DNA of 64,000 nt. It comes from Panopea generosa (taxonomy: Eukaryota > Mollusca > Bivalvia > Adapedonta > Hiatellidae). Shown here in pieces: positions 27,802 to 64,000 of the stretch. A program made the position numbers and the translations under genes. The stretch is from positions 558,001-622,000 of the forward strand of contig CM055901.1 in assembly GCA_029582155.1 (NCBI GenBank), read 5' to 3'. The first letter of the stretch is position 1. Each line of letters opens with the position of its first letter. The notes beneath the pieces were generated by a model. It had not been told where the DNA came from, made no database searches, and saw nothing but the letters and a program-made list of their open reading frames with translations.

Positions 27802-28532
27802 AGAGCGACAATTGGCATATTCAACACTAAAAGTCACAGAATTTTTATCAAACAAAACGTATACTGGTATCCTTCAACAGACATTAAACTAACTTTACTC
27901 CCGTTCTTTTCAATATCATATTATTCAAATCTACTTACACATGTTACATTGGAATCTACCTTAAACAACCAATTCTCGATTGTCATTGCTTTACTTTTAC
28001 TTTCTGCTGGAGACATAGAACAAAATCCTGGCCCAGAAAATCAAGACTGTGCCAACTGTCTCTCTGTCATGCATCTAAATATCCGTAGCATAAGGAATAA
28101 GCTCGAGTATATCAAAGATAATTTCCTTGATTACGATGTTATATGTTTCTCTGAAACTCGTATTACTCAAGATATTTCTCCACCATATATTGAATTGGAC
28201 AATTTTGAACAAAATATTTACCGTAAAGATAATACCGCCTATTGTAGTGGTTTATTGATATACGTTTCGAGCTCACTTATCTCAAAACGTCATTTAGCAC
28301 TCGAAACAACGACAATTGATCTTATTTGGATTGAAGTTAATTTTAAAGGGGAATCAATATTAGTTTGTAATGTTTATCGACCACCAAATTCACCAGTTTC
28401 CTTCTGGAAAGACTTAAATATATCTATTGAAAAAGCTCTTGAATATAATCCTAAAATTATCATTGTAGGGGATATTAATGAAGATCAATTAAATATTAAT
28501 AGCAAACAATTAAAACATGATTATCAACAGCT
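27802..28532 (+). pseudogene. LINE ORF2, N-terminus with 2A-like motif and APE endonuclease
   Basis: The frame is open from just after a TAG at 27,799 but has no in-frame ATG before the endonuclease; a TTG at 27,949 is the nearest alternative start. A hydrophobic stretch (IVIALLLLSA) leads into a 2A-like GDIEQNPGP, followed by an apurinic-type endonuclease: HLNIRSIRNK, FSETRI, the VYRPPNS motif and GDIN. Such endonucleases nick target DNA to prime reverse transcription. The domain is cut by the MITE at 28,537; the sequence resumes at 28,774 in a frame shifted by one base, so an extra small indel exists at the junction. Confidence 0.85.
28009..28035 (+). other. 2A-like ribosome-skipping motif
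   Basis: Codons here read GDIEQNPGP, matching the D-(V/I)-E-x-N-P-G-P consensus of 2A peptides, at which the ribosome fails to form the Gly-Pro bond and so releases the upstream chain. 2A-like sequences are known at this position, ahead of the endonuclease, in APE-type non-LTR retrotransposons of several invertebrates. The hydrophobic run just before it could act as a signal-like segment. Function is inferred from the motif. Confidence 0.85.
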
Positions 28533-28536
28533 TTAA

Positions 28537-28769
28537 CCCTTTACTGCATAGATACACGTTTTCCTGCACCAATCACAGAAGGCCTTTGAAAACAGTGCTG
28601 GAAGAGTTCAGATTGCTCATAACGAGGAATCTGAACACTTCCTGCACTGTTTTCCACTCTGTCAGTTAATGTAAACATAATTCACCCAATAATTCAGAAG
28701 TCTTCTATATTAGATGTCCAAAGGCGTCTATATTAAAGGTGTCCCAAGACATCTATATGAAGTAAAGGG
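28537..28769. mobile_element. piggyBac-like MITE (TTAA target) inserted in LINE ORF2
   Basis: TTAA lies at both edges (28,533-28,536 and 28,770-28,773). The ends are inverted repeats CCCTTTACTGCATA and, on the other strand, CCCTTTACTTCATA, one mismatch in 14. TTAA duplication plus CCC ends are the piggyBac hallmarks. It contains a second inverted pair around GTGCTGGAAGAGTTCAGATT and its near complement ending AACACTTCCTGCACTG. Non-coding, 233 bp. Confidence 0.85.
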
Positions 28770-28773
28770 TTAA

Positions 28774-30537
28774 TAATGTAATAACAGAAGCAACCAGAGT
28801 AACTGATAGGTCCTCTGCTCTCATCAATCCAATATTAACTTCAGATAACATAACTGTTTTAGATAGTGGAATTTTTAACACACCAGTTTCAATTAGTGAC
28901 CATAAAGAACAATCTTCTGCTAGCAAAAGGAAGGTATGGATATACAAAAAAGCTGATTATGAAAAGCTTAACTTTTTAATTTCTAATGAGAACTGGTTAT
29001 TTATAAATGAACTTAATACAAATGAAGCTGCTTTGCAGTTAACTGAAAAACTAATAAATTTAATGAAACAATGTATACATTTTAAAGAAGTGCATATAAG
29101 GGCAAATGATAAACCATGGTATGATTCGGTAATAAGAACTTTCTCTAGAAAGCGTGATCGTCAAAAAGTAATAGCCTGTCATTCAAATAGTAGACAACAA
29201 TAGTTAAAATAGAAAAAGTTACGAAACAAAGTTAATAATTTAAAAAATCATGCAAAAGAAAGTTTCTTTAGCAACATTGAAGATACTATTAGTGGGACCT
29301 TTATTGACAATCCTAAATATTATTGGAAACTAACAAAAATTCAGATGTGATATCGCCACTGAAATCAACAATAAACGGTGTTGAAACATTCTGTTTTGTA
29401 GATTATGAAACTCGATTAAATAATTACTTTTGTTCAGTTTCTAGTGTAAATGACAATGGTGTAAACCTACCAACCTTCGAACTGTTTTCTAATAATACTC
29501 TTTCTCAAGTCGTTCTAACGGAGGAAGAAATAAACAATATTATACAAACATTAATTACAAATAAAGCTGTCGGGGAAGACTTAATAAGTCCTACAATTTT
29601 AAAAAATACTTGTAATACTATATCAAAACCACTTTGCAATCTTTTTAACAAATTTCTAAATGAATGTGTATTTCCAAGTTCTTGGAAGTCGGCTATAGTT
29701 ATGCCACTGTTTAAAAAGGGGGATTCCGATTGTGTTTCAAACTACAGACCTATATCTTTACTAAGCTGAATTGGCAAACTTATGGAAAGGACCATGTACA
29801 AACACATATAATCATCTCTTTGATAACAATTTGATATATAACAATCAGTCCAGTTTTCTAAGAGGCCATTCCACAGTTTATCAATTACATGTAATTGATA
29901 TATACCACCATATCACTCAAGCCATGGATTCAAAACTACATACGTGTATAATGTTCTGTGATATTTCAAAGGCATTTTATCGTGTTTGGCGGAAAGGTTT
30001 AATATTCAAACTTAGACAGAACAGCATTTCAGGTTGTTTGATAAAATGGATTGAAAGTTATTTAAATGAGAGGGTTCAAAAAGTGTTTGTTGGTTCTTCT
30101 TATTCTGAAGTATTTCTCGTCTCTTCGCTGACGATACCTTGTTAGTATTTTCTGCCCGGGATGTAAATAATTTAGAAGGTATTTTAAATCATGATCTGCA
30201 GAGCATAAACAATTGGTCAAAAAGATGGCTGGTCAACTTCAATCCAAATAAAACTGAGGCCATGTTCTTTAGTTTACAAAAATATATTAACAATCCTAGA
30301 TTAAGTTTTGATAACACACCTGTCAATTTTGTAAATCAACATAAACATTTGGGAATAACTTTTAGCAGTGACGGGAAATGGCATCAGCACATTGATAACA
30401 TAACTAAATCAGCATCAAAACTCTTAGGTATAATGTGCAAACTTAATTATCAAATAAAACGTAAAACACTCAAACAAATTTATATATCTAATTTAAGACC
30501 AATACTAGAATATGCTTCAGTTGTTTGGGATGGATGA
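28774..30537 (+). pseudogene. LINE ORF2, linker and reverse transcriptase (degenerate)
   Basis: After the MITE the frame continues with ITEATRVTD then SISDHK (end of the endonuclease), a linker with KPWYDS then RKRDR, and the RT: FKKGDSDCVSNYRPISLLS, IGKLMER, the motif-A block FCDISKAFYRVW, WIESYLNER, then a catalytic ADDTLL segment and NKTEAMFFS, HKHLGITF, and RPILEYASVVWD. Nonsense or frame breaks occur near 29,200, 29,325, 29,769 and 29,815. The Asp expected after SKAF is Tyr. Between EVFLVSS (about 30,120) and ADDTL the conserved GVPQGS-type block is missing, an internal deletion of roughly 100 nt or more. Jockey/CR1-type affinity is inferred. Confidence 0.8.
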
Positions 30538-30993
30538 ATACACAAAGGTGATACCCCTGATTATCTCAGTACTCTTTTTCCAAATACAGTAGGATCAATT
30601 AATAATTATGGTTTGCGTAATGCGGACAATTACGTTATCGTTAATACAAGAACTAAAATTTTCTCTAAACCTTTTGTGCTGTCTTCCGTCTTACTATGGA
30701 ACACTTTACCTACTTCTGAAAGAAATATAGAATCTCTTAGTAATTTTAAAAATGTTATAAGTAAATCCTATTTCAACAGAAGTGAAATTCCATCATATTA
30801 TTTAGTTGGTACACATCAATTTCCCGTTATCCTTGCCCGACTTAGAAATGGATGTAGCGACTTAAAATCAGATTTGTTTTCTAATCACTTAGTAGAGAAT
30901 GAAACTTGCTATTGTGTCTCAAGAAGAGAGGATACTGAACATTATTTTTTTCAATGTAATAGATATAGAAATGAACGACTTCACCTCTTCTGA
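30538..30993 (+). pseudogene. LINE ORF2, C-terminal domain
   Basis: Reads GDTPDYLSTLFPNTVGSIN then NADNYVIVNTRTK, SSVLLWNTLP and a terminal Cys/His cluster CYCVSRREDTEHYFFQCNR, the CCHC-like motif at the C-terminus of many Jockey-clade LINEs. It follows directly on VVWDG with an in-frame stop, whereas the LEKIQ...AARI-type region expected between them is absent, which indicates a second internal deletion. Ends with a TGA at about 30,994. Confidence 0.75.
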
Positions 30994-31850
30994 GCAACTC
31001 GTAGGTTTCATCCTTTTAGCTGTAACACTATGTTACTAGGTCATCAAAGTTTTTCAGAAGAGGACAATACCATATTATGTTTGGAGGTTCAAAAGTACAT
31101 AAAAGATACCGGTCGTTTTAACTGAATATAATACGAGATTGTGAAATGACATACTTCAAAATCAGGTCTGGGAGTCATATTTATATATATATATTTTTTT
31201 TCTAAATATTTTTCTCCTTTTTTATTTGCAGTTGTTTATTATCATTACCTTATTGTTTCTTAAACCATAAAATTACTTTATTTATGGTATTTAAAGAAAT
31301 GAATATTTAATTCTCAATTACATACTCTTACTTTAATATCTGTTTTTCCTTTTAACATTTATTTCAAATCTTATTTTTAGAACATACTTATTGAAATAGT
31401 AATGTTAACTATTTTTCAGCTTAGACCGAGTTACCCTACAATTAACATGACTGCCCTGCCAATATTATTGTACTTCATTTGCATGAGGGACGGGCCGTAA
31501 CTAATGTTGGCAGAACTTGTGGCCCAACCCTCTTGCTTCTATGTGTTTGTAAATATTTATAGCATAATTTTTATGTAAGGTTTGCTCCCATAACATTATG
31601 CATATATAAATCACAAGTTTTAGGGTTTGAACAAGACCGGAGAAGTGAGAGAATTAAAGGGAGAACTGACTATGTCTCTAAATGTATGACCAACTTACTA
31701 TGTTGTACTTAATCTTTGTTTTTTATTGACTATCATTTCTGTTCTATCACTCTGTGGCAGTATGGGAGCAGGTGTTAATTCAAAACATTATTTCAAATAT
31801 CTTTCTCTTTTCATATGATTACTTAATGTCATAACATACAACAATGGCAA
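30994..31850 (+). other. probable 3' untranslated region of the LINE and spacer
   Basis: Non-coding, AT-rich, with a TATATATA run near 31,181-31,192. The LINE 3' end could not be fixed; no poly(A) or clear microsatellite tail was found. Confidence 0.35.
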
Positions 31851-31869
31851 TGTCAAGACTACAAAAATA

Positions 31870-34180
31870 TTCCATTCATCCAAGAGAACTTGGCAGTCTG
31901 TGATCTTGATTGAAAAAGCTTAAAGAGAATATTACATAAATGCTATAAAAGAAAATTAATCCTCAGGAACAATGTGGAAATATATTAATGATCTGAAAAA
32001 AGGAACATCTAAACCAAAACATATAAAAAAATAAAAACTGTAAAAAAAATTTTCACATCTGAAGAACTTATTGCAAATGAATTAAACAGCTTTTTCACAA
32101 ATATCTCTAATAAAATTCCAAAGTGCAATACAGCCTTTGAGCTTGATAAACTTAAAGAATTTGTTAAAAATAAAACACAAATAAATACTGAATTTTCAAT
32201 AAGAAATATTTCAACAGATGAGGTTCTGAAATACATAAACCAGCTTGACCCTTCAAAGTCAACTGGTCTTGATGTTAAATACTAAAAATTGGTGCACCTG
32301 TCCTTGCTAAATCAATTTGTCACATTATAAACATTAGAATAATGACAGGAGTAATCCCATCAGTACTTAAAAATTCAGGAGATATTCCTATATTCAAATC
32401 GGATGATGATGACCCAGGGAATTACAGACCAATATCTATTCTACCAACTCTATCAAAAATATTAGAAAGGCATATAGCAAACCAATGCATTGAATATCTT
32501 TAACAATACAGTTTAATTTATAAACGAGCAATCAGGATTCAGGAAAGCTCATTCCTGTCATACTGCTTTGACCAACCTGACTGATATATTACTGCATGAA
32601 ATGGGCAGTGGGCATATCACAGAACTTATATTTATAGATTTTAAAAAAGCCTTTGATTTAGTTAACCATGACATTCTTCTTACAAAACTGAAATGTTACA
32701 ATTTTGACAAATGTACTTTAAATTGGTTTAGTTCTTATCTAAATGAAAGGTACCAGAAAGTGCAAATTGGTACTAAATATTCAAAATCCAATCGAATTAG
32801 GAGTGGGGTACCTCAAGGATCTATACTTTGGCCATTGTTATTTATAAAGTTTGTAAATGATTTGTCACTTTATGTCAATAATGCTAACACAGATATATTT
32901 GTAGATGATGTGACATTGTTTAACTCTGGTAGTAATCTCAAACAAATACAAGTAAATAGTAAGCTTAGTCTTAAACAAACAGAACAGTGGGCAAATCAAA
33001 ACAATGAATGAATGAATAGGGTTTTACGGCTTACCAACACATTTCAGGTTATTCGACGCCAACAGGAAGGAAGATTCCAAGTTCACTCTACATGTACAAA
33101 AACAAATTAACACACAGATTAAAAAAAAACATCAACAAATGAATATGCAGAATAAACCTTGAACCTCGATACCTGCAGAACTGCAGAGTTCCAGCAAGTT
33201 CTATCGTGTTACACATTTTGTCGCTTCTTACGACATGCATAAGCCACAGTGATCCTATTCTTGCCATCACTCATGGCTCCCTGGAACTACACAGGGGTTG
33301 ATTATTTAACCACAATAGTGAACATAACAAAAAATGATAAAATGATCATGGCACCCATTCGGAGGATTTCTTCCCCTCTGCAAAGATCGACAGTGATTCT
33401 ATTCTTAGCCAGAACCACATGGGCTAAATTAAAACAAAATCAAATCAAAATGTTAATAAATGAAAAGAATACTAAGAGTATGGTTGTATGCACATCATGG
33501 AGAAACTGCTCAGGTTACAATATCAGTAGAAATGGAAAAATCCAAAAGAGAACAGCTAGAATCATTCTTGGTATGCCAAATGATTCTCCATCTAAACCAT
33601 TGATTCAGGAACTTAAATGGTTAAATAATGCAGAAAGAATATATTTTCATAAAGCAATACAAGTTTATGAATGTGTCAACAAGCTTACTCCAGATTATCT
33701 TACATCTTTTTTTCAAACGGCTAAATCATCTTATGAATTAAGAGCTTGTGCAAATGGGGATATAGTGATTCCTAAATATAGATTAAACAAATACAAAGCC
33801 TTTACTATTCTGGGGCTCTCATATGGAACTCTATAACCTCAAGTGTATGACAAGCAAAGAATACTAAAAAATATAAAAAGAAATAATATGCAACTTTCTT
33901 AAGTAACTCTAACTATTACAGTGGTAGATTAAATATCTCAATATTCCTACAAGACAATACAATATCTATGCTATAAAATTGTCATAACATTGTATATTCA
34001 TGAATATCTTAGAAATGCAATGACTTTAATTAAGTTTATGATTGTATGTTTATTTAGTATTTGAATTTATTTATTATAACTATGCTTTGCTTTGTTGATG
34101 GCCTCAAGGGAGAACAGTTATTGTAATTGATTGAGTTACCATCGTTAAATAAAGAATTTACTATTATTATTATTATCTAG
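31870..34180 (+). pseudogene. second LINE fragment: RT and C-terminal region, 5'-truncated
   Basis: Starts within the linker (KYINDLKKGTSKPK, SEELIANELNSFFTNISNKI), then RT blocks: DPSKSTGLD, SDDDDPGNYRPISILPTLSK, the motif-A block FIDFKKAFDLVNHDIL, RSGVPQGSILWPLLF, FVDDVTLF (FADD in most relatives), and after an insertion MLINEKNTKSM. The end carries QKRTARIILGMP and a terminal CVNKLTPDYL segment stopping at 33,836. Stops near 32,280 and 32,500 and other breaks make it inactive. It ends with AATAAAGAATTTACTATTATTATTATTAT, a LINE-type ATT-repeat tail at 34,150-34,177. It differs from the LINE at 27.8-31 kb. Confidence 0.8.
33002..33440. mobile_element. SINE-like insertion with 10-bp target duplication
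   Basis: CAAATCAAAA flanks the insert at 32,992-33,001 and 33,441-33,450 and is continuous with the LINE reading (EQWANQ before, MLINEKNTK after). The 439-bp insert begins with (ATGA)n then GGGTTTTACGGCTTACC and contains TCGCTTCTTACGACATGCAT, strings of a kind common in molluscan dispersed repeats. It may be a composite, since ATTCTTGCC/ATTCTTAGCC appears twice (33,252 and 33,400). The open frame 33,249-33,836 begins inside it. Confidence 0.65.
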
Positions 34181-35559: not shown

Positions 35560-35681
35560 CTATAACCATAAACAAATTAAAACGTGGAAAATTGTTACAA
35601 GGCTCGGGGTATATATTGAAATTGTGCTGTAATGATGCAGTTCATTTGCTCTGTTAGTGCCACTGGCAGCCTGTCCTTCAC
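35560..35681 (-). CDS. terminal exon of GPI-anchored IgSF gene (omega site and hydrophobic tail)
   Basis: The minus strand shows a polypyrimidine acceptor TTTTTTCTGTTTTAG, then an exon whose first two bases complete a glycine codon begun by the stalk exons (phase 1). It encodes EGQAASGTNRANELHHYSTI and so on for 39 residues and ends with a hydrophobic run LVTIFHVLICLWL directly before the stop. A small-residue cluster (ASGTN), a hydrophilic spacer and a terminal hydrophobic stretch are the layout of a GPI-attachment signal, which is cut and replaced by a lipid in the ER. Proteins of the lachesin/IgLON family are commonly GPI-anchored. The cleavage residue is not certain. The exon is separated from the nearest stalk exon by an intron of about 4 kb holding the 34-bp minisatellite. 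Confidence 0.75.
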
Positions 35682-36019: not shown

Positions 36020-38826
36020 GTCCATTGTTAGAATGCTGAGCCAAGTCCCCGGCAGGACCATATGCCCAAGAATTGGTAGTCCCCGGCAGAACCATGTGCC
36101 CAAATATTGGTAGACCAGAAGGACCATATACCTAAGGATTGAAAGTCCAGAGCAGGACCATGGGTCAAAGGATTGATAGTCGCCAGCAGGACTATGTCAA
36201 AGGATAAGCAGTCCCCAGCAGGACCATGCTTCAAAGGATTGGCAGTCACAAGCAGGACCGTGTCAAAGAATTGTCAATTCCTAGCAGGACAATGTCAAAG
36301 GATTGGCAGACCCCAGCAAGACAATGGGTCAAAAGATTGGCAGTCCCTAGCAGGACCATGTCAAAGGATTGGCAGTCCCCAGCAGGACCATGTTAAAGGA
36401 TTGGCAGTCCCTAGCAGGACCATGTATCAAGGATTGGCAGTCCCTAGCAGGACCATGTGTCAAAGGATTGGCAGTCGCCAGCAGGACCATGTGTCAAAGG
36501 ATTGGCAGTCACTAGCAGGACCATGCATCGAAGGATTGGCCTTCCCTAGCAGGACCATGTATCAAAGGATTGGCAGTCCCCAGCAGGACCATGTCAAAGG
36601 ATTAAAAGTCCCAAGCAGGACCAATGTATCAAAGGATTGGCAGTCCCAAGCAGGACCATGTCAAAGGATTGGCAGTCCCCAGCAGGACCATGTCAAAAGA
36701 TTGGCAGTCCCTAGTAGGATCATGTATTAAAGGATTGGCAGTCCCTAGCAGGACCATGTATCAAAGGATTGGCATTCACTAGCAGGACCATGCTTAAAGG
36801 ATTGGCAGTCCCCAGCAGGACCATGTCAAAGGATTGGCAGTCCCTAGCAGGACCATGTATCAAAGGCTTGGCAGTCACCAGCAGGACTATGTATCAAAGG
36901 ATTGGCAGTCCCCAGCAGAACCTTTTGTCACAGGATTGGCAGTCCCTAGCAGGACGATGTCAAAGGATTGGCAGTCCCCAGCAGGACCATGTCAAAGTAT
37001 TGGAAGTCCCTAGCAGGACCATGTCAAAGGATTTGCAGTCCCGTGCAGGACCATGTCAAAGGATTGCCAGTCCCCAGCAGGACCATGTATCAAAAGGATT
37101 GGCAGTCCCAAGCAGGATCATGTATAAAACGATTGGTAGTCGCCATTAGGACAATGTATCAAAGGTTTGGCAGTCCCTAGCAGAACAATGTATCAAAGGA
37201 TTGGCAGTTTCCTGCAGAACCATGTGTCACAGGATTGGTAATCCCCAAGCAGGACCATGTGTCAAAGGATTGGTAGTCCCTAGCAGGACAATGTATCAAA
37301 GGTTTGGCAGTCGCCTGCTGAACCATGTGTCACAGGATTGGCAGTCCCTAGCAGGACCATGTATCAAAGGATTGGCAGTCCCTAGCAGGACCATGTACCA
37401 AAGGATTGACAGTCCCAAGCAGGACCATGTATCAAAGGATTGGCAGTCCCTATCAGGACCATGAATCAAAGGTTTGGTAGCCGCAATTAGGACAATGTAT
37501 CAGAGGTTTGGTAGTCGTCAGCAGGAATATGTATCAAAGGATTGGCAGTCCCCACCAGGACCACGTGTCATAGGATTGGTAGTCGCCAGCAGTATCATGT
37601 ATCAAAGGTTTGGCTGTCCCCAGCAAGACACGTGTTAAAGGATTGGCAATACCCAGCAGGACCATGTATCAAAGGATTGGCAGTCCTCAGCACGACAATG
37701 TATCAAAAGATTGGTAGTCCCCAGCAGTACCATGTGTCAAAGGATTGGCAGTCCCCAGCAGGACCACGTGTCAAAGGATTGGCAGTCCCTAGCAGGACCA
37801 TGTATCAAAGGATTGGCAGTCGCTAGCAGAACCATGCGTCAAAGGATTGGCAGTCCCCAGCAGGGCCATGTCAAAGGATTGGCAGTCCCTTGCAGGTACA
37901 TATATCAAAGGCTTGGCAGTCGCCATCAGGACCATGTATCAAAGGATTGGCAGTCGCCAGCAGAACCATGTGTCACAGGATTGGCAGTCCCTAGCAGGAC
38001 CATGTCAAAGGATTGTCAGTCCCCAGCAGGACCATGTCAAAGGATTGGCAGTCCCCAGCAGGACCATGTATCAAAGGATTGGCAGTCCCTAGCAGGACCA
38101 TGTATCAAAGGATTGGCAGTCCCCAGCAGGATCATGTATCAAAGGATTGGCAGTCCCTAGCAGGACCATGTATCAAAGGTTTGGTAGTCGCCATAAGGAC
38201 AATGTATCAGGTTTGGTAGTCGCCAGCAGAACCATGTATCAATGGATTTGCAGTTCTTTGCAGGACCATGTATCAAAGGATTGGCAGTCCTTAGCAGGAC
38301 CATGTATCAAAGGAATTGCAGTCCCCAGCAGGACCATGTGTCATAGGATTGGTAGTCCCCAGCAGTACCATGTATCAAAGGATTGGCAGTCCCCAGCAAG
38401 ACCACATGTTAAAGGATTGGCAGTCCCCAGCAAGACCACGTGTTAAAGGATTGGCAGTCCCCAGCAGGACCATGTGTCAAACGATTGGTAGTCCCCAGCA
38501 GGACCATGTGTCAAAAGTTGGCAGTCTCTTGCATGACAATGTATCAAAGGATTGGCAGTCCCCAGATGGACCATGTGTCAAACGATTGGTAGTCCCCAGC
38601 AGGACCATGTGTCAAAACGACTGGCAGTCCCCAGCAGGACCATGTGTCAAAGGATTGGCAGTCCCCAGCAGGACCATGTATCAAACGATTGTTAGTCCCC
38701 AGCAGGACCATGTGTCAAACGATTGGCAGTCCCCAGCAGGACCATGTGTCAAAGTATTGGCAGTCCCCAGATGGACCATGTATCAAAGGATTGGCAGTCC
38801 CCAGCAGGACCATGTGTCAAAGGATA
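36020..38826. repeat. 34-bp minisatellite, about 80 units, in intron
   Basis: The consensus unit is AAAGGATTGGCAGTCCCCAG then CAGGACCATGTATC (34 bp). A 32-bp variant lacks two bases (ATGTCAAAGG instead of ATGTATCAAAGG). The first 170 bp are degenerate. Because 34 is not divisible by 3, the frame shifts by one every unit, so translation cycles through three peptides over 102 bp and all three plus-strand frames stay open for long distances; these apparent proteins of up to 185 residues are artefacts. It lies in the Ig-gene intron between the last stalk exon and the GPI exon. Confidence 0.9.
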
Positions 38827-39734: not shown

Positions 39735-39950
39735 CTGGCATTAACTTTTGATTTACGCCCTGTCCAGTATGATCTATACCCGCTTGTCCCTGCACATTGA
39801 TGTTGTGTTTCGGTTGGTTTACCACTGGTTTCAACGTAAAGCCATTTTTGCCAAAAGAGTCTTTGTTTGAAGGAAAAAGCGTGGAATGGAGCAGCCCTGG
39901 TGTTGTGTGTTTTGTCTTCGTAGTCTTAGTCTTGGTGAGAATGGCGTAAT
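39735..39950 (-). CDS. IgSF gene stalk exon, copy 1 of 4 (most 3')
   Basis: Minus-strand exon of 216 nt between acceptor TGTCTCTTTCAG and donor CCAG|GTAAAG. With the split codons it adds exactly 72 residues, starting (G)AT = D and ending MPG with the G split, so it is phase 1 at both ends. The peptide is K/T/P-rich: TKTKTTKTKHTTPGLL, FPSNKDSFGKNGFTLKPVV, then a Gly/Gln-rich NVQGQAG segment. No Cys and no N-glycosylation sequon; Thr/Ser/Pro content suggests an O-glycosylated extended stalk between Ig domain and membrane. It differs from copy 2 by a few residues (PKHN for PKHT, GIDH for GRDR, GQG for GQS). Confidence 0.7.
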
Positions 39951-40093
39951 CTGAAAGAGACAGATACATAAAACAATGTATTTTATATAGATATAGTTTT
40001 TCATTGATATATACCAAATTTAAATGTTTTCTAAAAGAGAGAGAGAGAGAGAGAGATATAGAGAGAGAGAGCCAATATCATCAAGGTCTTTAC

Positions 40094-40309
40094 CCGGCAT
40101 TAACTTTTGATTTACGCTCTGTCCAGTACGATCTCTACCCGCCTGTCCCTGCACATTGATGGTATGTTTCGGTTGGTTTACCACTGGTTTCAACGTAAAG
40201 CCATTTTTGCCAAAAGAGTCTTTGTTTGAAGGAAAAAGCGTGGAATGGAGCAGCCCTGGTGTTGTGTGTTTTGTCTTCGTAGTCTTAGTCTTGGTGAGAA
40301 TGGCGTAAT
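40094..40309 (-). CDS. IgSF gene stalk exon, copy 2 of 4
   Basis: 216 nt, same splice sites and phase as copy 1 (donor CCGG|GTAAAG). The sequence around it, including part of the intron, is repeated with a period of exactly 359 bp relative to copies 1 and 3. A GA microsatellite at about 40,037-40,071 separates it from copy 1. Protein keeps the K/T-rich start and GRDRTGQS near the end. Whether copies are spliced together or used alternatively cannot be seen from the sequence. Confidence 0.7.
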
Positions 40310-40390
40310 CTGAAAGAGACAGATACATAAAACAATGTATTTTATATAGATATAGTTTTTCATTGATATATACCAAATTTAAATGTTTTC

Positions 40391-40427
<37 letters not shown>

Positions 40428-40429
40428 GA

Positions 40430-41257
40430 GCCAATATCATCAAGGTCTTTACCTGGCATTAACTTTTGATTTACGCTCTGTCCAGTATGATCTCTACCCG
40501 CCTGTCCCTGCACATTGATGGTGTGTTTCGGTTGGTTTACCACTGGTTTCAACGTAAAGCCATTTTTGCCAAAAGAATCTTTGTTTGAAGGAAAAAGCGT
40601 GGAATCGAGCAGCCCTGGTGTGGTATGTTTTGTCTTCGTAATCTTCGTCTTGGGTTGAATGGCGTTATCTGAAAGAGACAGATACATAAAACAATGTATT
40701 TTATATAGATATAGTTTTTAATTGATATATACTAAATTTATACTTTTTCTAATAAGCATTACTATTGCATACAAAGTATATAATGCACTAATATTATGCT
40801 TACGAAATAGTTCAGACCGTAATGTCAGTCATCCGTAGACAACACAGTTTAATGATTCATTTTCAGGGCTGTAATTCCAGCATTTATTATCCGATTTTGC
40901 CAGTTAAAAAACTTATCCGAGACATAATAGTTGATACAAATTGTGTAAGTTTGGTGAGGATCAGATTAAAATTGGGAATGCAAGTGTGCACACTGGGTCA
41001 AAATAAAATATTTTTGACGATTCAAAGTCCATTCATTAACCCAGCATGTATAACCCGATTCAGCTAATTTAAGTAATTGTCTACCGGTAAGATACCATGA
41101 TTACATCTATTAAATTATTGTAAAATTCTAATTAAGATAAAATTAAATGCTAGAATACACACAGGGTCAATTAATTTTTGACAATTCTAGTGACATAACC
41201 TTGGTACTGTATATCTTAGACATAGCATCATACTCTATATGGTATTGAACTAGTCAC
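40430..41257. repeat. segmental duplication, block X (pair with 41,591-42,406)
   Basis: The exon copy 3 plus about 590 bp of upstream intron (minus-strand sense) is repeated at 41,591-42,406 around exon copy 4 with scattered mismatches and small indels; the two blocks are offset by about 1,161 bp. Both end with TATGGTATTGAACTAGTCAC. It shows how the fourth stalk exon arose. Confidence 0.8.
40453..40668 (-). CDS. IgSF gene stalk exon, copy 3 of 4
   Basis: 216 nt, phase 1-1, acceptor TCTCTTTCAG and donor CCAG|GTAAAG. Begins DNAIQPKTKITKTKHTTPGL and has LLDS where the other copies have LLHS. A GA repeat at about 40,394-40,432 lies downstream. It sits at the edge of an 0.8-kb block duplicated at 41,591-42,406. 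Confidence 0.7.
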
Positions 41258-41590
41258 TATCTAATCATATATCTATAACTTCTACAAACACTTTACTTCT
41301 GTATTATTTAACTGGAATACGATTTACGACTACTTAAACATCTATAAATATGTATTAGTCTTCAAACATTTTCTTGACGTATATTTTTAATATTTTTGTC
41401 AAATAACTATTTGTGAAAAATAGCAATGCTGAAGTTAAAAGGGTTGATGAAAGCTAATTAGAAAGCAACTAAATCAGAATCTAGAGAAATGAAAAGCTCT
41501 ATCATGCAGTTCACTAAACATACAGACAGTGACTAGTGTGCCATAGCATTTATCTGTTAATCCTTTCTTTCTAACGTCATCGTTCTGAAA

Positions 41591-42406
41591 GCCAATATCA
41601 TAAAGGTCTTTACCCGGCATTAACGGTTGATTTACGCTCTGTCCGGTACGATGTCTACCCGCCTGTCCCTGCACATTGATGGTGTGTTTCGGTTGGTTTA
41701 CCACTGGTTTCAACGTAAAGCCATTTTTGCCAAAAGAGTCTTTGTTTGAAGGAAAAAGCGTGGAATGGAGCAGCCCTGGTGTTGTGTGTTTTGTCTTCAT
41801 AGTCTTAGTCTTGGTATGAATGGTGTTATCTGAAAGAGACAGATACATAAAACAATGTATTTTATATAGATATAGTTTTTCATTGATATATACTAAATTT
41901 ATACGTTTTCTAATAAGCATTACTATTGTATACAAAGTATATAATGCACTAATATTATGCTTATGAAATACTTCAGACTGTAATGTCAGTCATCTGTAGA
42001 CAACAGTTTAATGATTCATTTTCAGGGCCATAATTCCAGCACTAATTATCCCATTTTGACAGTTAAAAAACTTATCTGAGACATAATAGTTTATACATAT
42101 TGTGTAAGTTTGGTGAGGATCAGATTAAAACTGGGAATGCAAGTGTGCACACTGGGTCAAATAATATATTTTTGACGATTCAAAGGCCAATAACCCAGCA
42201 TGCATTACCCGATTCAGCTAATTTAAGTAAGCGTCTAAGATACCATGATTACATCTATTAAATTATTGTATAATTCTAATTGAGATAAAATTAAATGCTA
42301 TAATATACACGGGGTCAATTAATTTTTGACAATTCAAGTGACATATTTTTGGTACTGTATATCTTAAGACATAGCATCATACTCTATATGGTATTGAACT
42401 AGTCAC
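41591..42406. repeat. segmental duplication, block Y (pair with 40,430-41,257)
   Basis: Contains stalk exon copy 4 and its upstream intron. Short indels relative to block X (for example near 42,000 and 42,190) show the duplication is not brand new. Confidence 0.8.
41614..41829 (-). CDS. IgSF gene stalk exon, copy 4 of 4 (most 5')
   Basis: 216 nt, phase 1-1. Begins DNTIHTKTKTMKTKHTTPGL and ends NQPLMPG where the others have NQKLMPG. It is the first stalk exon after the Ig-domain exon at 43,382-43,675, whose last codon (G..) is completed by its first two bases (AT) to Asp. Slightly more diverged from copies 1-3 than they are from each other, so the 1.16-kb duplication that made it likely preceded the 359-bp tandem duplications. 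Confidence 0.7.
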
Positions 42407-43381: not shown

Positions 43382-43675
43382 CGTATAAAAGCATCTTTTC
43401 ACTATCATATGAAATGCTATTTCTAGCATAGCACAGATATTCGCCGAAGTCATCTTCCCGGATGTCCTTAATGTGCAGACTCAAAGTCTTGCTATTCTTT
43501 GTGCCACTAAACAGCTCCACCTGGTACTTATTATTTGGTTTATGGTCTATCCCAATGCCTTCCTTCATCCAGTACATTAATGCATGAGGATAGGCAGTTA
43601 TTTCACAGTCTAATCTTGTGTCCTCTCCTACATACTGTCCAATACGCTTCTTAGGGAGTGACACTTCCGGTGCAA
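43382..43675 (-). CDS. C-terminal Ig (I-set) domain exon of lachesin/IgLON-like protein
   Basis: Minus-strand exon of 294 nt (98 codons) between acceptor TTTTTCACATTTCAG and donor TATACG|GTAAGG, phase 1 at both ends, as typical of Ig-domain exons. Protein: APEVSLPKKRIGQYVGEDTR, then the B-strand Cys (LDCEITAYPHA), the core Trp (MYWMKEG), a long CC' region, and D..EDDFGEYLCYARNS with the F-strand Cys and the D-x-G-x-Y-x-C pattern, ending with KMLLYG. The VGQY...AYP...W signature and the final LYG are typical of the third Ig domain of lachesin, DIP and IgLON adhesion proteins. A short peptide-based match, so the subfamily is not certain. Confidence 0.85.
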
Positions 43676-43829: not shown

Positions 43830-45070
43830 ATGGAATGAAACCTCATCAACCATAACACACTTTAGCTATGAAATGTGTACTTAAACATAACAAATTATAA
43901 CGCACTTTAGCTATGAAATGTGTACTTAAACATAACAAATTATAACGCACTTAAGCTATGAAGTGTGAACCTAAACTTTACCAATTACAACACACTTTAG
44001 CTATGTGACCCTAAACCTTACCAATTATAACACCAATTATAAGCACTTTAGTTATGAAATGTGAACCCTAAACTTTACCAATTATAACGCACTTTAGCTA
44101 TGAAATGTGAACCTAAACCCTACCAATTATAATGCACTTTAGCTATGAAATGTGAACCCTAAACTTTACCAATTATAATGCACTTTAGCTATGGAATTTG
44201 AACCTAAACCTTACCAATTACAACACACTTTAACTATGAAATGTGACCCTAAACCTTACCAATTATAACGCACTTTAGTTATGAAATGTGAACCCTAAAC
44301 CTTACCAATTATAATGCACTTTAGCTATGAAATGTGAACCTAAACCTTACCAATTATAACGCACTTTAGCTATGAAATGTGAACCTAACCCTTACTAATT
44401 ATAACGCACTTTAGCTATGAAGTTTGAACCTAAACTTTACCAATTACAATGCACTTTAGCTATGAAATGTGAACCTAAACTTAACCAATTAGAACGCACT
44501 TTAGCTATGAAATGTGAACCTAACCCTTACCAATTAAAACGCACTTTAGCTATGAAATGTGAACCTAAACCTTACCAATTACAACGCACTTTAGCTATGA
44601 AATGTGAACTTAAACCTTACCAATTATAACGCACTTTAGCTATGAAATGTGAACCTAAACCTTACCAATTATACGCACTTCAGCTATGAAATGTGAACCT
44701 AAACCTTACCAATAATAATGCACTTTAGCTATGAAATGTGAACCTAAACCTTACCAATTATAACATACTTTAGCTATGAAATGTGACCCTAAACCTTACC
44801 AATTATATGCACTTCAGCTATTAAATCTGAACCTAAACCTTACCAATTATAACGCACTTTCGCTTTGAAATGTGAACCTAAACCTTACCAATTATAACGC
44901 ACTTTAGCTATGAATGTGTATTTAAACCTAACCAAATATAAAGCATGTTAAGCTATGAAGTGTGTTTAAGCCCAACTAATTATAAAATACTTTAAGCAAT
45001 GAAATGTGTACTTGGACCTAACCTATCATAACGCACTTTAATCTATGAAATATGTTTTGAAACCAAACCA
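43830..45070. repeat. 45-bp tandem repeat, about 27 units, in intron
   Basis: Unit GCACTTTAGCTATGAAATGT then GAACCTAAACCTTACCAATT and ATAAC, 45 bp. As 45 is divisible by 3, some stretches stay open and give a 15-residue repeat (44,417-44,629), but neighbouring units carry stops and indels, so it is not a gene. It lies between the two Ig-domain exons. Confidence 0.9.
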
Positions 45071-50364: not shown

Positions 50365-51753
50365 AAAATTGGTGAAAACAAATGTTTTTCAGAATAAACT
50401 CATTTTCTGGTATTTTTCGAGAAACCACAGAAAACGGTAAGTAAACACGTGATAAAACAAGCATAATGTAAAATTGAAAAGTAAAAATGCTGTACACTAT
50501 GACGGAGACATACAGACTTCTCTTTAACAACAGGAAATATATTTCATTTAGTACTGTGCATCGATAGAGTTATCCTAATATTCTTTTTTTCTATTACTGT
50601 TTTTGTTTCAAAGATAATCTACAGCAATATTCAATCTAAAGCCTAGTTGTACACCACCAGCTCTATAAATGCAATTGAACAAAAATCTGGCCAGTCATGT
50701 GACATGTATTTATTTGATCACTTTATTTAAACTTCATCAAGTAGATATATTTTGAAATATATTAATAAGCCCAACATATAATGTCAGCAAACAGAGCAAT
50801 AGCAAGTAATAAAGAAACAAGTTAAAATTTAAAAATTTTTTTCTAAAATCCATTTTTATGTACAAATCAAACCTTATAAATGAAAAAAAACTTGTACGTT
50901 TTTATTTTATGTTCGGATGATTGAGTTTCATTTTCTACCAAAAACTCTACATAGCCTATATATTAATATGCTTCACACATTTCATTTGAACCATTCACAA
51001 ACTAGTTAACATTTGACCAATCAGATTAAGCTCTTTTACATTGTTGTGACGTAATTATCATTATTTCATCTATTCATGTCGTAATAAGTGACGTAATAAA
51101 ACATGTGATTAAGCGTATCTACATTGACACTCTAGTGTAACATTCATCAATACCGTCCATTTCTGTCAAAATGTGACCGTAGCCAATAACATTTCGGCCC
51201 TCATTAGTTTCCTGCACTAAAAAATCTGTAAAGATTAGATCATACTGTGTTAAGGTACATACATGAACGGTTATAATGAGGATACGATCATTGGGAATCT
51301 GACATTATTACATTATTGTTTGCAGTTTAATTAATTTCTGTTGAATTGAAATTACACTTCAATTTGTTGCAAATATGCTTAATGTGATGAAGTTTTTTGG
51401 TTTCTTGCTTCTGTACAATATATGACAAAAATTGTTATTTTTATTAATATTTATATTGTTAAATGTTAAAATCAATATAATGAACCCACGAAAGGTGTAT
51501 GTATCTTGCTGTAAAATATGAATTTGCTGAATTGACAAAGTTTCTACCATCTAAATAACATCTATTTCTATGACATGGCTTCTTTATTTATTTAGTTAAT
51601 ACTTTTTTCTACACATGTCCATAATCATAATGTTGTTTATTTTTTATCAGTCTAATAAACCCACAAAGGACTAACATGTCACAAATGAAGAAACAAAACA
51701 CAATGACTAAAATCTTTAAGTTGTTGAAGCATTTTTCATTAAAACTGAATAAA
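50365..51753. other. non-coding spacer
   Basis: No gene recognised. TGACGTAAT occurs twice (about 51,048 and 51,090), a CRE-like site. A minus-strand frame ending near 51,127 (after an acceptor-like TTTTTTAG at about 51,222) is open for about 31 codons but has no known motif. Confidence 0.35.
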
Positions 51754-52558: not shown

Positions 52559-53521
52559 CTAATGTTTTAACTGTTCAACCTTTGCATCCAACTTTTTAGC
52601 GATTTCTTCATACTGCACAAGTTTATCCTGTGCTCTTTTGCGATTAGCATTAGCTTGTGCAAGAAGTTCCCACTTCAAGGTCTTTTCTGCTTTTACAGAC
52701 AATTCATCTGCTTTCTTCACAAGTGATTCATGATCTAATTTTGTTTGCTTTTTTCTCTTTTTCAGATCATCAATGTCCTGTAGAACATGCTTTCTTTTCC
52801 TCTGCTCAAAATCTGACTTGTTCTTCTGTCTTTCCTGCTCTAAGTAGGTTTCATATTTCTGTCTTGCTGAAGATGCACTTACAAGAAGCTGATTCGTGAT
52901 GGGAACATTCAGTATTCCTCCAACATTTCTGACATAATCACAGATTATCCTCTGTGCAACAACACTTTCTTCCTTCAAGTTTTCACATTCAACTTTCTTA
53001 TTTACTGAAAAGCCACGTTCTACTGTTGCTTGTCCGTGAGAGAGAGTCAGCAGCAGCTTAACAATCTCCAGCAGCTTCCTGTACCTAGGATCTGACATGT
53101 GGTCTACAACAAACTTGTCCAGTCTATCCTTGTATGGGTCAAACTCTGTAAACTTCTCAGAACCGATAACTGGTATATTGTCAAGGAAGTCATTATATTG
53201 TTGCAAAATGACTTCACCATCACACTCATTGATCCGTTTTGTTGCAATAATCAACTTAATAAGTCTCTTGAATCTGTCCCTGCTGATATTTGTATCTCTG
53301 GCCATTTCCCTTGGGCATAATGATGCCATATTCCTAACTATAGAATAGGAGATAGGGCACTTTGCAGCTATTTTCTTCAACACTCCAATCACAAATGCCT
53401 TACACTCCATTCTGAATTCCAGGACTTCTTTTTCACTGACGGTTAAGCTTCTCAACTTTTCTTCAGCTTGTAAACCAATGTCCACTTTCTTGTATGTCAA
53501 TAAATTGGTCTTCTCCTCCAT
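52559..53521 (-). pseudogene. hAT transposase, C-terminal part (320 codons)
   Basis: Contains the hAT C-terminal dimerisation region: residues 147-180 read RYRKLLEIVKLLLTL then SHGQATVERGFSVNK, matching the S..A.VER.FS pattern that defines the family. Residues 215-320 are a charged coiled coil with a nuclear-signal-like KKRKK. The internal ATG at 53,521 is probably not a real start, because transposase-like coding continues upstream across a frame change into the frame that begins at 54,945. Together the parts give about 790 residues, within the range of larger hAT transposases. Confidence 0.8.
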
Positions 53522-53643
53522 ATCTATCCTTAGTAATTTTTTCTGCTGTTGTCGCCTGATCTAAAACTTCAGCTTTAATTACTTTCCTCATCAAACACTT
53601 CATGACTGCAGTTAAGTCGGTCACCAGAAAAGGCACCATGGGC

Positions 53644-54945
53644 TTATCTTTTTTGGAAGTTGGCTAGGAAAGGCTGCAATATGTATGCAATGGAACCAAA
53701 GAACTCCAACTTTGCTGTGATTAACTTATCCTTCACAGCTTTGCTAACAACAGCATATGACTTGTTTGTGGGTTTAGGCAACTCCTTTAATTGAATTTTC
53801 TTGACATAAAGTTCAACTGAAGTCCAAACCTTCAATGCCCTCTGGAAAACAGGAACATTTTCTAACCATCTGTGGTCTACAAATTTCAGTGGCATAAGTG
53901 TAGAGCCAGACACTTTCTGATAATCCTCTCTTCTGGCTGGTGAATCCTTAAAGAGGTAGTATAGGCTTCCCAGAAGTGAAGAGATTCCCCATTCTGTAGC
54001 AACTGCACCTGCCTTAAATGCATTGTGCAGTGTATGCAAGCCACATGAGCCAATATTAATTAATTCATGGCCATAGTCAGTCTTGATTTGACTTTGGATT
54101 GTGTTGAAAAATTTCCAATTGACACTTGGCCCATCCATACTAATCTGGATCATGTCATGGACATTTAACTTATCCGTGATCAACTCATTGAAATGTCTCA
54201 CCATGTCATCAGCAGTAGCATGGCCTAAAAACTGTGAGCCTAAATATCTGGTTACAACCTGCTCTGTGTCTGTGTCCCAATACCTGACATGAATGTCCAT
54301 CTGTTTTTCCTGCATTTTTTTATTCAATGATTCATCGAACAGAACCACAAAAAAACCTTTGACATTTGAAAGTATTAATTTTTTGAAGTGTTCTGCAAGG
54401 CCAAAGACACACAAGTAAGAAGTTTTCCTTTCTGCACATGTAAATTTTGCAGCCAGTGTGCTATCTGGGAACATAGCATGAAAAACATCAGTAATATGTT
54501 CATTGGATTTGTATGAGGCATGAGTGACTACAGTTTGCAATGTCCACAAAATTTCAGACTTCAGAACATCATTCTTCGAAACAAAGTTGGAAATACTTGA
54601 CGGGATGATTGAAGCAGCTGCGGTTGGAAGTGTAGCGGTATCAGCTGGGGGTGGAGGTACCATTAATCCATCGCCGCACATACTTGGTTTAGAAATACTA
54701 GATATTGTGTTAACCGTTTCTGTTTTTATCCCAAAAAACTGCAAGCCCATTGTCGGCACGGACGTTTCGTTTTTCCGGTGTCTCTCACTCTTTCCGTGCG
54801 ATTTCAGGGCACTCTCTCCCATGGCAGCAATGTCTATATCTTTCTTACAAACACTGCACCAAGCTTTTTTGTTATTCTGTGTTTCCTTGACCCACTTATA
54901 CCTACTTAGCCAGCCACGGCTGAATACGCATTTCCCCGGAGGCAT
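53644..54945 (-). pseudogene. hAT transposase, N-terminal part (433 codons)
   Basis: Begins with ATG at 54,945. Residues 29-56 form a BED/TTF-like zinc finger (WCSVC with C30 and C33, then H50 and H56), which binds the element ends. After a proline/serine-rich linker, D204 (VVLFDES) and D271 (SMDGPS) fit the first two catalytic acids of hAT transposases, which cut DNA through hairpin intermediates. Ends at a TAA just after a six-A run near 53,652; one extra A there would explain the frameshift, because the next frame continues in phase with transposase-like sequence. A second one-base shift before 53,521 is needed to reach the C-terminal part. Likely inactive unless these are sequencing errors. 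Confidence 0.8.
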
Positions 54946-55557
54946 TGTTATCTATTTATTATTACCATGTGCTCTTGATGAAAACGAGGCTCCAAGTCAT
55001 TGGGTTTCCCTAGATGACGTCACTAATTCCGAAACCAAGCAGCTTTTCAAACTCATTTTATTCTTTTTCTGTATATTGTGGATGTGATAAGGGTGATATT
55101 GGTAATTTTTCAGTACGGGTCTTGGGGGAATTATTTATCAAATGCGTTGCGGTCATGCATTTTTAAGGGGAAAACACGCCTTATCTATTTTAGAATTAGA
55201 ACAGGTGCGTACAAGGTTTCCGCACTGGTTTCCCGCATGCTACACTGCACAATGATGCTTGGAAACAGATTTATCAAACTGAGTAGTCTCCCTTCCCTTG
55301 CATATAGTAAAACACGGAGTAAAATAAATGGCGAAGATGAACGTTTCATAGTCTCCAGTTTTTTATTTTTTAAATTGAAACTCTTTAATATTCAAGCACT
55401 TTTCACTGATTTTTGTTCATTTTCAAGTACTTTTAAAGCACTTTTCCCACTGACATTAAAAACAAGCACTTTTCAAGGAGATTTTTAAAAAATAAGCACT
55501 ATTCATCTGAGAGGCTGAAAATCAAGCACTTTTCAAATCTGTGCGAACCTTGATAGA

Positions 55558-57060: not shown

Positions 57061-57880
57061 AGGGAACAATTTGATCCCCTTACACCAGATGAAGCTTCTT
57101 TTATAAAAATTTTTAACTTATCTTTATAAGTGCAACCTTAAATACAGTGCCATAGGAACTGCACGTGCAGCTATTAACAAATTCGTAGATATCTGTGGTG
57201 GAACAGATTTCACAAATTCCAGCCTAGTTGCAAAGTTCCTGAAAGGAGAATTTGTCAATAGACCACCTTTGCCAAAGTACACTAGAGTTTGGGATGTAAA
57301 TATAGTCCTCAAATATGAGGAGATGACCGACTCATCTCTTTTGTATTTGTCTGGGAAGTTATCTATATTGTTTCTTCTGTTGTCGGCACAAAGATGTCAA
57401 ACATTACATTTAATTTGCTTAAATGACATTTCAATATCTGATACAGAACTGGTGATAAGAACCAATCACTTATTAAAACAAACAAAACCAGGCCAACATC
57501 TGGACACAATAGTGCTGCAAAAATATGAAAAAGATGAACAGTTGTGCATTGTACACGTCTTTAAACAATATTTAGAACGTACTAATCATTTAAGGGGAAA
57601 TGTTGAGAGGTTATTGATCAGCAGCCAAAAGCCTCATAATGCAGTATCAATATCAACAGTATCCAGATGGGTAAAAATGATGATGATTAAGGCAGGAGTG
57701 GACTCGCATTACAGTCCACACAGTACTAGGGCAGTTACTGCTAGTACTGCTAATTATAAGGGTGTTCCCTTAGAAACCATTGCTAAAACAGCAGGTTGGT
57801 CAAATGCAAAGACATTTGCAAAGTTTTACAACAAACAAATTGATAATACAATGTCTGTTCAAACGGCTATTCTAGAGTAA
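56950..57880 (+). pseudogene. DIRS-like tyrosine recombinase
   Basis: An N-terminal SAM-like segment (FKKRGILKESADIILASWRK, STQKQYACF) is followed, after a frameshift near 57,110, by an open catalytic domain. Counting from M at 57,269, R42 (SAQRCQTL), H151-x-x-R154 (HSTR), W177 (GWS) and Y187 (FYNK) form the complete R-H-R-W-Y tyrosine-recombinase set, so the C-terminal half could be catalytically intact. DIRS elements use this enzyme rather than an integrase to insert a circular DNA copy. Ends with TAA at 57,880. Confidence 0.8.
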
Positions 57881-63425: not shown

Positions 63426-64000
63426 AATCTCATAATATTTCTTATTTATATAACAAAAACAGTTTACATTTAATTTAATAAGACATTATATGTAACTTTA
63501 CACTTAAACAATTATCATCATATGTTATTTAAACAATAATATTTATTTACCTATTAATTAATTATCCTTTTAAATGTAGTATATAAACATTACTTTGAGA
63601 GATAGTAAATACAAAGCTAGAAGAACCAGTCAAACATTCAGTACCTGTTTGCTTGAGCGTGTACACACAGGAATCGATGATTGTAAACGTACCAGCTTCC
63701 AAATCAAGTCCTGGGAGACAGTAAACAAAACAATTCAATTAAACAGACAAAAGGAAAAAGAATAGAAGAAACGTATAAAACATGCAGAGGAGCATGCAAG
63801 TGACGCAGGTGACAAAACATGGAGAGGCTACACATGTTTGTGATACAGTACTAGAGAACAATATGTACATTCGTGATATAACTCCACCATAGAATTGTGT
63901 CGTTCATATTCAATGGGCACATACCCGTGAATGGCTAAAGTAGTGCCGAGATATTGATAGTATGATGTCAGAAATAGCACAAATAAACATGAAATAGTCT
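63426..64000. other. non-coding end of window with one weak exon candidate
   Basis: At 63,645-63,710 (minus strand) a 66-nt stretch is bounded by a good acceptor (TTTACTGTCTCCCAG) and donor (ACAG|GTACTG) and is open in a phase-1 reading (LDLEAGTFTIIDSCVYTLKQ). It would be upstream of the Ig gene on the same strand, but has no Ig motif. Confidence 0.25.

Follow-up and report, generated by a model that had tools for sequence, protein, structure and literature searches.

We found that a gene for a three-Ig adhesion receptor of Panopea generosa contains four tandem copies of an exon encoding a membrane-proximal stalk, whereas its sister gene on another contig contains a single copy. The explanation that we favor, with moderate confidence, is a lineage-specific tandem expansion of a single old stalk exon in a relocated copy of the gene, with all four exons included to give a longer stalk.

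The DNA analyzed was taken from contig CM055901.1 of assembly GCA_029582155.1 (positions 558,001-622,000, forward strand). This whole stretch of 64,000 nt is referred to as the window, and all exon coordinates are window coordinates. C8 denotes the contig that carries the window and C13 the contig with the sister gene.

A three-Ig receptor gene with a stalk-exon array

The gene containing the stalk exons is on the minus strand, ~0.6 Mb from the start of the 76.7-Mb contig, and extends past the window end. Its exons and associated features, in the direction of transcription, are as follows.

77263-77369, minus strand: Ig1a exon, beyond the window
70813-71023, minus strand: Ig1b exon, beyond the window
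66624-66767, minus strand: Ig2a exon, phase 1-1, beyond the window
63645-63710, minus strand: candidate Ig2 cassette exon A, 66 nt, phase 1-1, from tblastn to relatives
51154-51225, minus strand: candidate Ig2 cassette exon B, 72 nt, phase 1-1, from a weak tblastn match to Ruditapes P0009
46515-46643, minus strand: Ig2b exon, second half of Ig domain 2, phase 1-1
43382-43675, minus strand: Ig domain 3 (Ig3) exon, phase 1-1; the open frame holding it matches Pfam Ig_3 (E 1.4e-11)
41614-41829, minus strand: stalk exon copy 4, Ig-proximal, 216 nt, phase 1-1
41524-41613, minus strand: possible alternative 90-nt 3' extension of copy 4 only (306-nt form), with a CYGTLVTVC motif and a GTATGT donor, phase 1
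40453-40668, minus strand: stalk exon copy 3, 216 nt, phase 1-1
40395-40430: AG/CT microsatellite in the 143-nt intron between copies 2 and 3
40094-40309, minus strand: stalk exon copy 2, 216 nt, phase 1-1
40036-40071: AG/CT microsatellite in the 143-nt intron between copies 1 and 2
39735-39950, minus strand: stalk exon copy 1, GPI-proximal, 216 nt, phase 1-1
35560-35681, minus strand: last coding exon, with a phase-1 acceptor and a GPI-signal-like C-terminus with a hydrophobic tail, EGQAASGTNRANELHHYSTISIYTPSLVTIFHVLICLWL followed by the stop

The presence of three consecutive Ig domains was indicated by three Ig_3 stretches in the joined C13 protein and by exons matched to relatives in both genes, and six of the six Ig cysteines were present in the C8 exons. 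None of the exons found for the C8 gene encodes the signal peptide. The last coding exon also aligned, and was open, in the sister gene, and the encoded protein is probably GPI-anchored. According to an excerpt of PMC10863630, most Dprs/DIPs were predicted to lack a GPI anchor although assays showed one.

Searching with the joined C13 protein (Ig1b onward) yielded 206 related proteins, the top annotated matches being LSAMP-like proteins of Ruditapes, Dreissena, Mya and Mercenaria. The best matches among solved structures were DIP-eta, DIP-alpha, DIP-theta, OPCML and neurotrimin; Drosophila DIPs and vertebrate IgLONs, for which we take wirin to be the family name, share the three-Ig architecture. 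By these matches, the gene is an LSAMP/lachesin/DIP-like three-Ig receptor. Candidate cassette exons A and B sit between the two Ig2 exons, and Ruditapes and Mya isoforms occur with or without matching segments. The best tblastn E values for exon A were 2.2e-4 in C8 and 4.5e-6 in C13, and the weak match of exon B to Ruditapes P0009 reached 0.021 in C8 and 0.006 in C13.

The four stalk exons

The first-pass annotation had described four exons of exactly 216 nt, with phase 1 at both ends, lying between an Ig exon and a GPI-signal exon that meet them in phase 1. Both the structure and the location were borne out by the coordinates, intact splice sites and open frames: TCTGTCTCTTTCAG directly precedes and GTAAAGACCT directly follows each of the four exons, the phase-1 frame is open in each, and the flanking exons are Ig3 and the GPI-signal-like exon. 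A repeat finder reported a 300-nt unit in four copies, three of which were 92-95% identical to the reference copy, and the four exons differed from one another at 7-16 of 216 sites. The array is ~2.1 kb long, with spacings of 359, 359 and 1161 nt. As adjacent homologous exons with the same phase and the same splice sites, the four are tandem duplicated exons, and no further degenerate stalk copy stood above background in the fetched C8 stretch.

The joined frame, from the Ig3 exon leaving in phase 1 to the last exon entering in phase 1, was open with four stalk exons or with none, and since all four share phase 1, any subset would remain in frame, in agreement with the annotation. Phase 1-1 is, however, common to the neighboring Ig2a, Ig2b and Ig3 exons and so is by itself no evidence of optional stalk-exon use. 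The proposal of a membrane-proximal stalk was supported, and its description as Thr/Lys/Pro-rich held for Thr (9-11 per 72 residues) and Lys (8-9) but not for Pro (5-6), which was no commoner than Gly, Asn, Gln or Leu. dN was lower than dS in 10 of 10 stalk-exon pairs (pairwise dN/dS ~0.28 to 0.80); this comparison involved no formal test, and purifying selection on the stalk residues is not claimed. A Pfam domain in the stalk was rejected (best E 0.15, with copies 4 and 3 joined).

Copy 4 differs from the other copies in its 3' flank. Both copy 4 (GTATGT) and the C13 stalk exon (GTACGT) are followed by a second donor in phase, which would add 90 nt or 30 residues ending in CYGTLVTVC. The 90-nt extension differed between copy 4 and C13 at 2 of 90 sites, compared with 30 of 345 in the surrounding flank. 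It is absent from copies 1-3, for which the downstream match to copy 4 ends after 27 nt in copies 2 and 3 (2 differences) and after ~17 nt in copy 1. A similar segment, ending in CSGTFLTLC or CSGTFVTIC, is found at the same place in Mercenaria and Ruditapes proteins, and the CxGxxxxxC motif occurred in 13 of 60 relatives' tails examined, several of which are isoforms of one oyster species. The GTATGT donor may be used in copy 4, and Mercenaria and Ruditapes may switch between two donors. By their flanks, the four stalk exons are not fully equivalent, and calling them interchangeable, as the annotation did, was too strong, given that the possible 306-nt form is kept by Ig-proximal copy 4 alone. 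Overall, its interpretation was partly supported, with respect to the stalk, the phases and a change of copy number in evolution.

A sister gene with a single stalk exon

Genome-wide, DNA and protein searches agreed on five stalk-exon matches, four at C8 and one on C13, although DNA match counts can be lower bounds. All five lie within the C8/C13 gene pair, and an origin of the stalk exon from a dispersed repeat or transposon was rejected on this basis. The matching exons of the C13 gene were fetched and contained a single stalk exon, and the C13 stretch was collinear, with gaps, with the region from ~34.3 kb of the window to the window end and ~8 kb beyond. By this comparison, stalk copy number has changed in evolution, with one copy in the sister and four in the C8 gene.

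A genome search with Ig3 gave 12 matches (a lower bound) including the C8 gene and its sister. Besides these two, five matches had E < 1e-11, all on C13; a sixth, at E 1e-7, lies beside one of the five and is probably the other half of the adjoining match's domain. Four weak matches (E 1e-4 to 9e-4) were on C1, C3, C4 and C13. Since the other strong Ig3 matches are all on C13, the C8 gene is likely a newcomer, and it looks like a relocated copy in which one stalk exon became four. The five further strong Ig3-like places on C13 suggest a gene family spread along one chromosome.

Thus, the genome provides its own control, a one-stalk sister versus a four-stalk gene, and this pair makes the effect of stalk length on an Ig adhesion receptor, as well as natural copy-number variation, directly testable.

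Stalks of related proteins

In the relatives, Ig3 is followed by LYDYSIHTK-like residues, then by a tail that varies and is often rich in Thr, and finally by a hydrophobic terminus. Tail length including the C-terminus had a median of 112 residues and ranged from 50 to 307 in 60 relatives, which are the junction-pattern matches among 119 proteins with the Ig cysteine motif, drawn from the best 120 of the 206 relatives. Strong internal repeats were detected in 1 of the 60 tails, that of the gastropod Babylonia P0032, and were short and of other sequence. The mollusc LSAMP-like/lachesin-like proteins Dreissena polymorpha P0004, Mercenaria P0007, Ruditapes P0003 and Mya P0005 likewise contain three Ig domains, a stalk after LYDY and a hydrophobic C-terminus, but each has one stalk, compared with four in C8; some mollusc LSAMP-like proteins also contain a CxGxxxxxC segment resembling the copy-4 extension. 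A structure model for the Dreissena relative was confident over most of the Ig part and had pLDDT < 50 at residues 329-407, and the stalk of this relative is predicted to be disordered.

Among 17 aligned relatives, 7 were "lgn" proteins, presumably from Logan assemblies, on contigs of 1.5-3.7 kb; as these contigs are short although the C8 gene spans > 40 kb, they are probably cDNA, and the stalk was present in 7 of 7. A query with the joined C8 protein from stalk to C-terminus returned no match at E <= 10 and no transcript, but it also missed known stalk-bearing relatives, indicating that this search was insensitive. Among the matches listed in the literature on stalks, exon duplication and mollusc Ig genes, no such array was described in titles or the starts of abstracts.

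Frame retention and rapid change of the Ig domains

We compared the C8 and C13 genes for signs of decay. In 16 chosen noncoding intervals, 767 of 9,219 aligned sites differed (8.3%; 3.6-12.5% by interval), and 18 of 105 indels were multiples of three. At this intron rate, ~10.4 frameshifts would be expected in 1,098 coding nt (Ig1b to Ig3, the GPI exon and one stalk exon), but none was seen (P 3e-5 for both branches together and 0.006 if C8 took half). The coding length changes between C8 and C13 numbered three, each of 6 nt, and the five stalk exons contained no indel (P 0.014). Nonsense codons were also absent, which is weak evidence (P of none 0.07-0.26).

The Ig domains nevertheless changed rapidly while the frame was kept. 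For the Ig plus GPI exons, dN was 0.108 and dS 0.093, and 59 of 75 Ig exon differences were nonsynonymous (expected fraction 0.743, P 0.43), a near-neutral ratio; these selection tests cover Ig1b to Ig3, the Ig part reached in C13. At 53 Ig residues that differ between the copies, relatives were better matched by C13 at 46, by C8 at 4 and by neither at 3. Of the 93 positions that are invariant in the 17 aligned relatives, 10 were altered in C8 and 1 in C13; for the 49 nearly invariant positions, the counts were 12 and 3, respectively. The C8 changes include several conserved residues of Ig1. The C8 branch carried ~54 nonsynonymous changes, compared with 22.5 expected if neutral change were equally shared (P 1e-8) and 45 if all neutral change fell on C8 (P 0.11); the placement of changes on this branch rests on the 17 relatives, chosen from the best 120 of the 206 found. 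By these estimates, the C8 branch is at or above the neutral rate with the frame kept, a pattern that suggests either selection for change or relaxed constraint without loss of the frame. The fast Ig change also suggests that a conserved receptor of neural type can become free to take on a new role.

Growth of the array and use of the stalk exons

Copies 1-3 are spaced at 359 nt by 143-nt introns with an AG microsatellite, both flanks of copy 4 are in common with C13, and copy 3 has the upstream intron in common with it. A 251-nt stretch is identical in copies 1 and 2, and the 7 exon differences between them all fall in the adjoining 70 nt, with 3 further differences in the microsatellite. Within the exon, copy 3 sides with C13 at sites 23, 28 and 44, but it is copy 4 that does so at sites 185, 204 and 205. 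Although informative sites are few, these clustered and mosaic patterns are consistent with unequal recombination or conversion whose breakpoints lay within exons. The mosaic differences within the array also make it plausible that stalk copy number varies between individuals.

The 251-nt identity of copies 1 and 2 might arise if the assembly had falsely repeated a single exon. We regard such an artefact as very improbable, since the copies differ from one another at 7-16 of 216 sites, their spacing and flanks differ, and the ~2.1-kb array is within the reach of a single long read. The near-neutral N:S ratio and the loss of conserved residues would agree with a decaying duplicate in which the extra exons are neutral and useless. 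Against this distinctly unlikely account stand the lack of frameshifts, as far as a rate from 16 chosen intervals allows, the restriction of coding length changes to 6 nt while 18 of 105 intron indels were multiples of three, and the indel-free stalk exons.

Regulated splicing would set stalk length by joining anywhere from none to all of the stalk exons, as the annotation had it, or by choosing a single one; it is somewhat less doubtful than decay but still unlikely. The shared phase, the second phase-compatible donor of copy 4 and C13, whose added segment is present in some relatives, and CT-rich tracts in the two short introns (copies 1-2 and 2-3) are compatible with it. In an excerpt of PMC9013439, tandem exon duplication is linked in many cases to mutually exclusive choice, and the exons described there and for Dscam in an excerpt of PMC3236188 are likewise tandem, similar and phase compatible. 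However, those mutually exclusive exons (e.g., of Dscam) encode parts of Ig domains, whereas the C8 exons encode a predicted disordered stalk, and their phases would let several be joined, compared with one per transcript in a mutually exclusive cluster. Moreover, the isoform pairs Ruditapes P0003/P0009 and Mya P0005/P0010 differ in the Ig2 segment and share the same stalk, although other isoforms may be hidden by the 90% identity clustering of the protein database. The flanks closest to the exon (14 nt before, 10 nt after) are the same in all four copies and offer no hint of differential regulation, although the final exon bases show slight differences.

Tandem expansion with inclusion of all four exons therefore remains our preferred explanation. 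The distribution of matches suggests that a gene of the C13-centered family was copied to near one end of C8. There, judging from sequence comparison, the stalk exon would have been duplicated with flanking intron and as a 359-nt exon-plus-short-intron unit to reach four, the order of these steps being less certain. The C8 copy stayed in frame while its Ig domains quickly changed, perhaps under selection for change. Default inclusion of all four exons is the simplest and most likely reading, although intact frame and splice sites do not establish use of every copy. It would produce a stalk of ~288 rather than 72 residues, disordered, basic and rich in Thr, so that the stalk of the C8 protein may be lengthened roughly fourfold and the rapidly evolving Ig domains may be held further from the membrane. 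The mosaic differences suggest that unequal recombination is still reshaping the array, and copy number may thus vary between individuals. More tentatively, and with low confidence, a wiring-type receptor relocated near a contig (perhaps chromosome) end might now serve as a rapidly evolving recognition receptor, with its reach determined by a recombining stalk array that differs in copy number among individuals.

Neighboring features

Two minisatellites lie in introns of the gene: a 34-nt repeat of ~83 units in the last intron (36044-38825), with a related array at the matching place in the C13 sister, and a 45-nt repeat of ~27 units in the intron between Ig2b and Ig3 (43838-45051), which is present in the sister too. 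LINE-like fragments were detected at 27802-33011 (plus strand), with one match to an endonuclease family (27802-28536) and one to reverse transcriptase (32517-33011). Two long open frames at 52559-54951 (minus strand), without a confident Pfam match, are possibly a transposase-derived pair, and an open frame at 57107-57880 (plus strand) matches the phage-integrase (tyrosine recombinase) family and is possibly derived from a mobile element.
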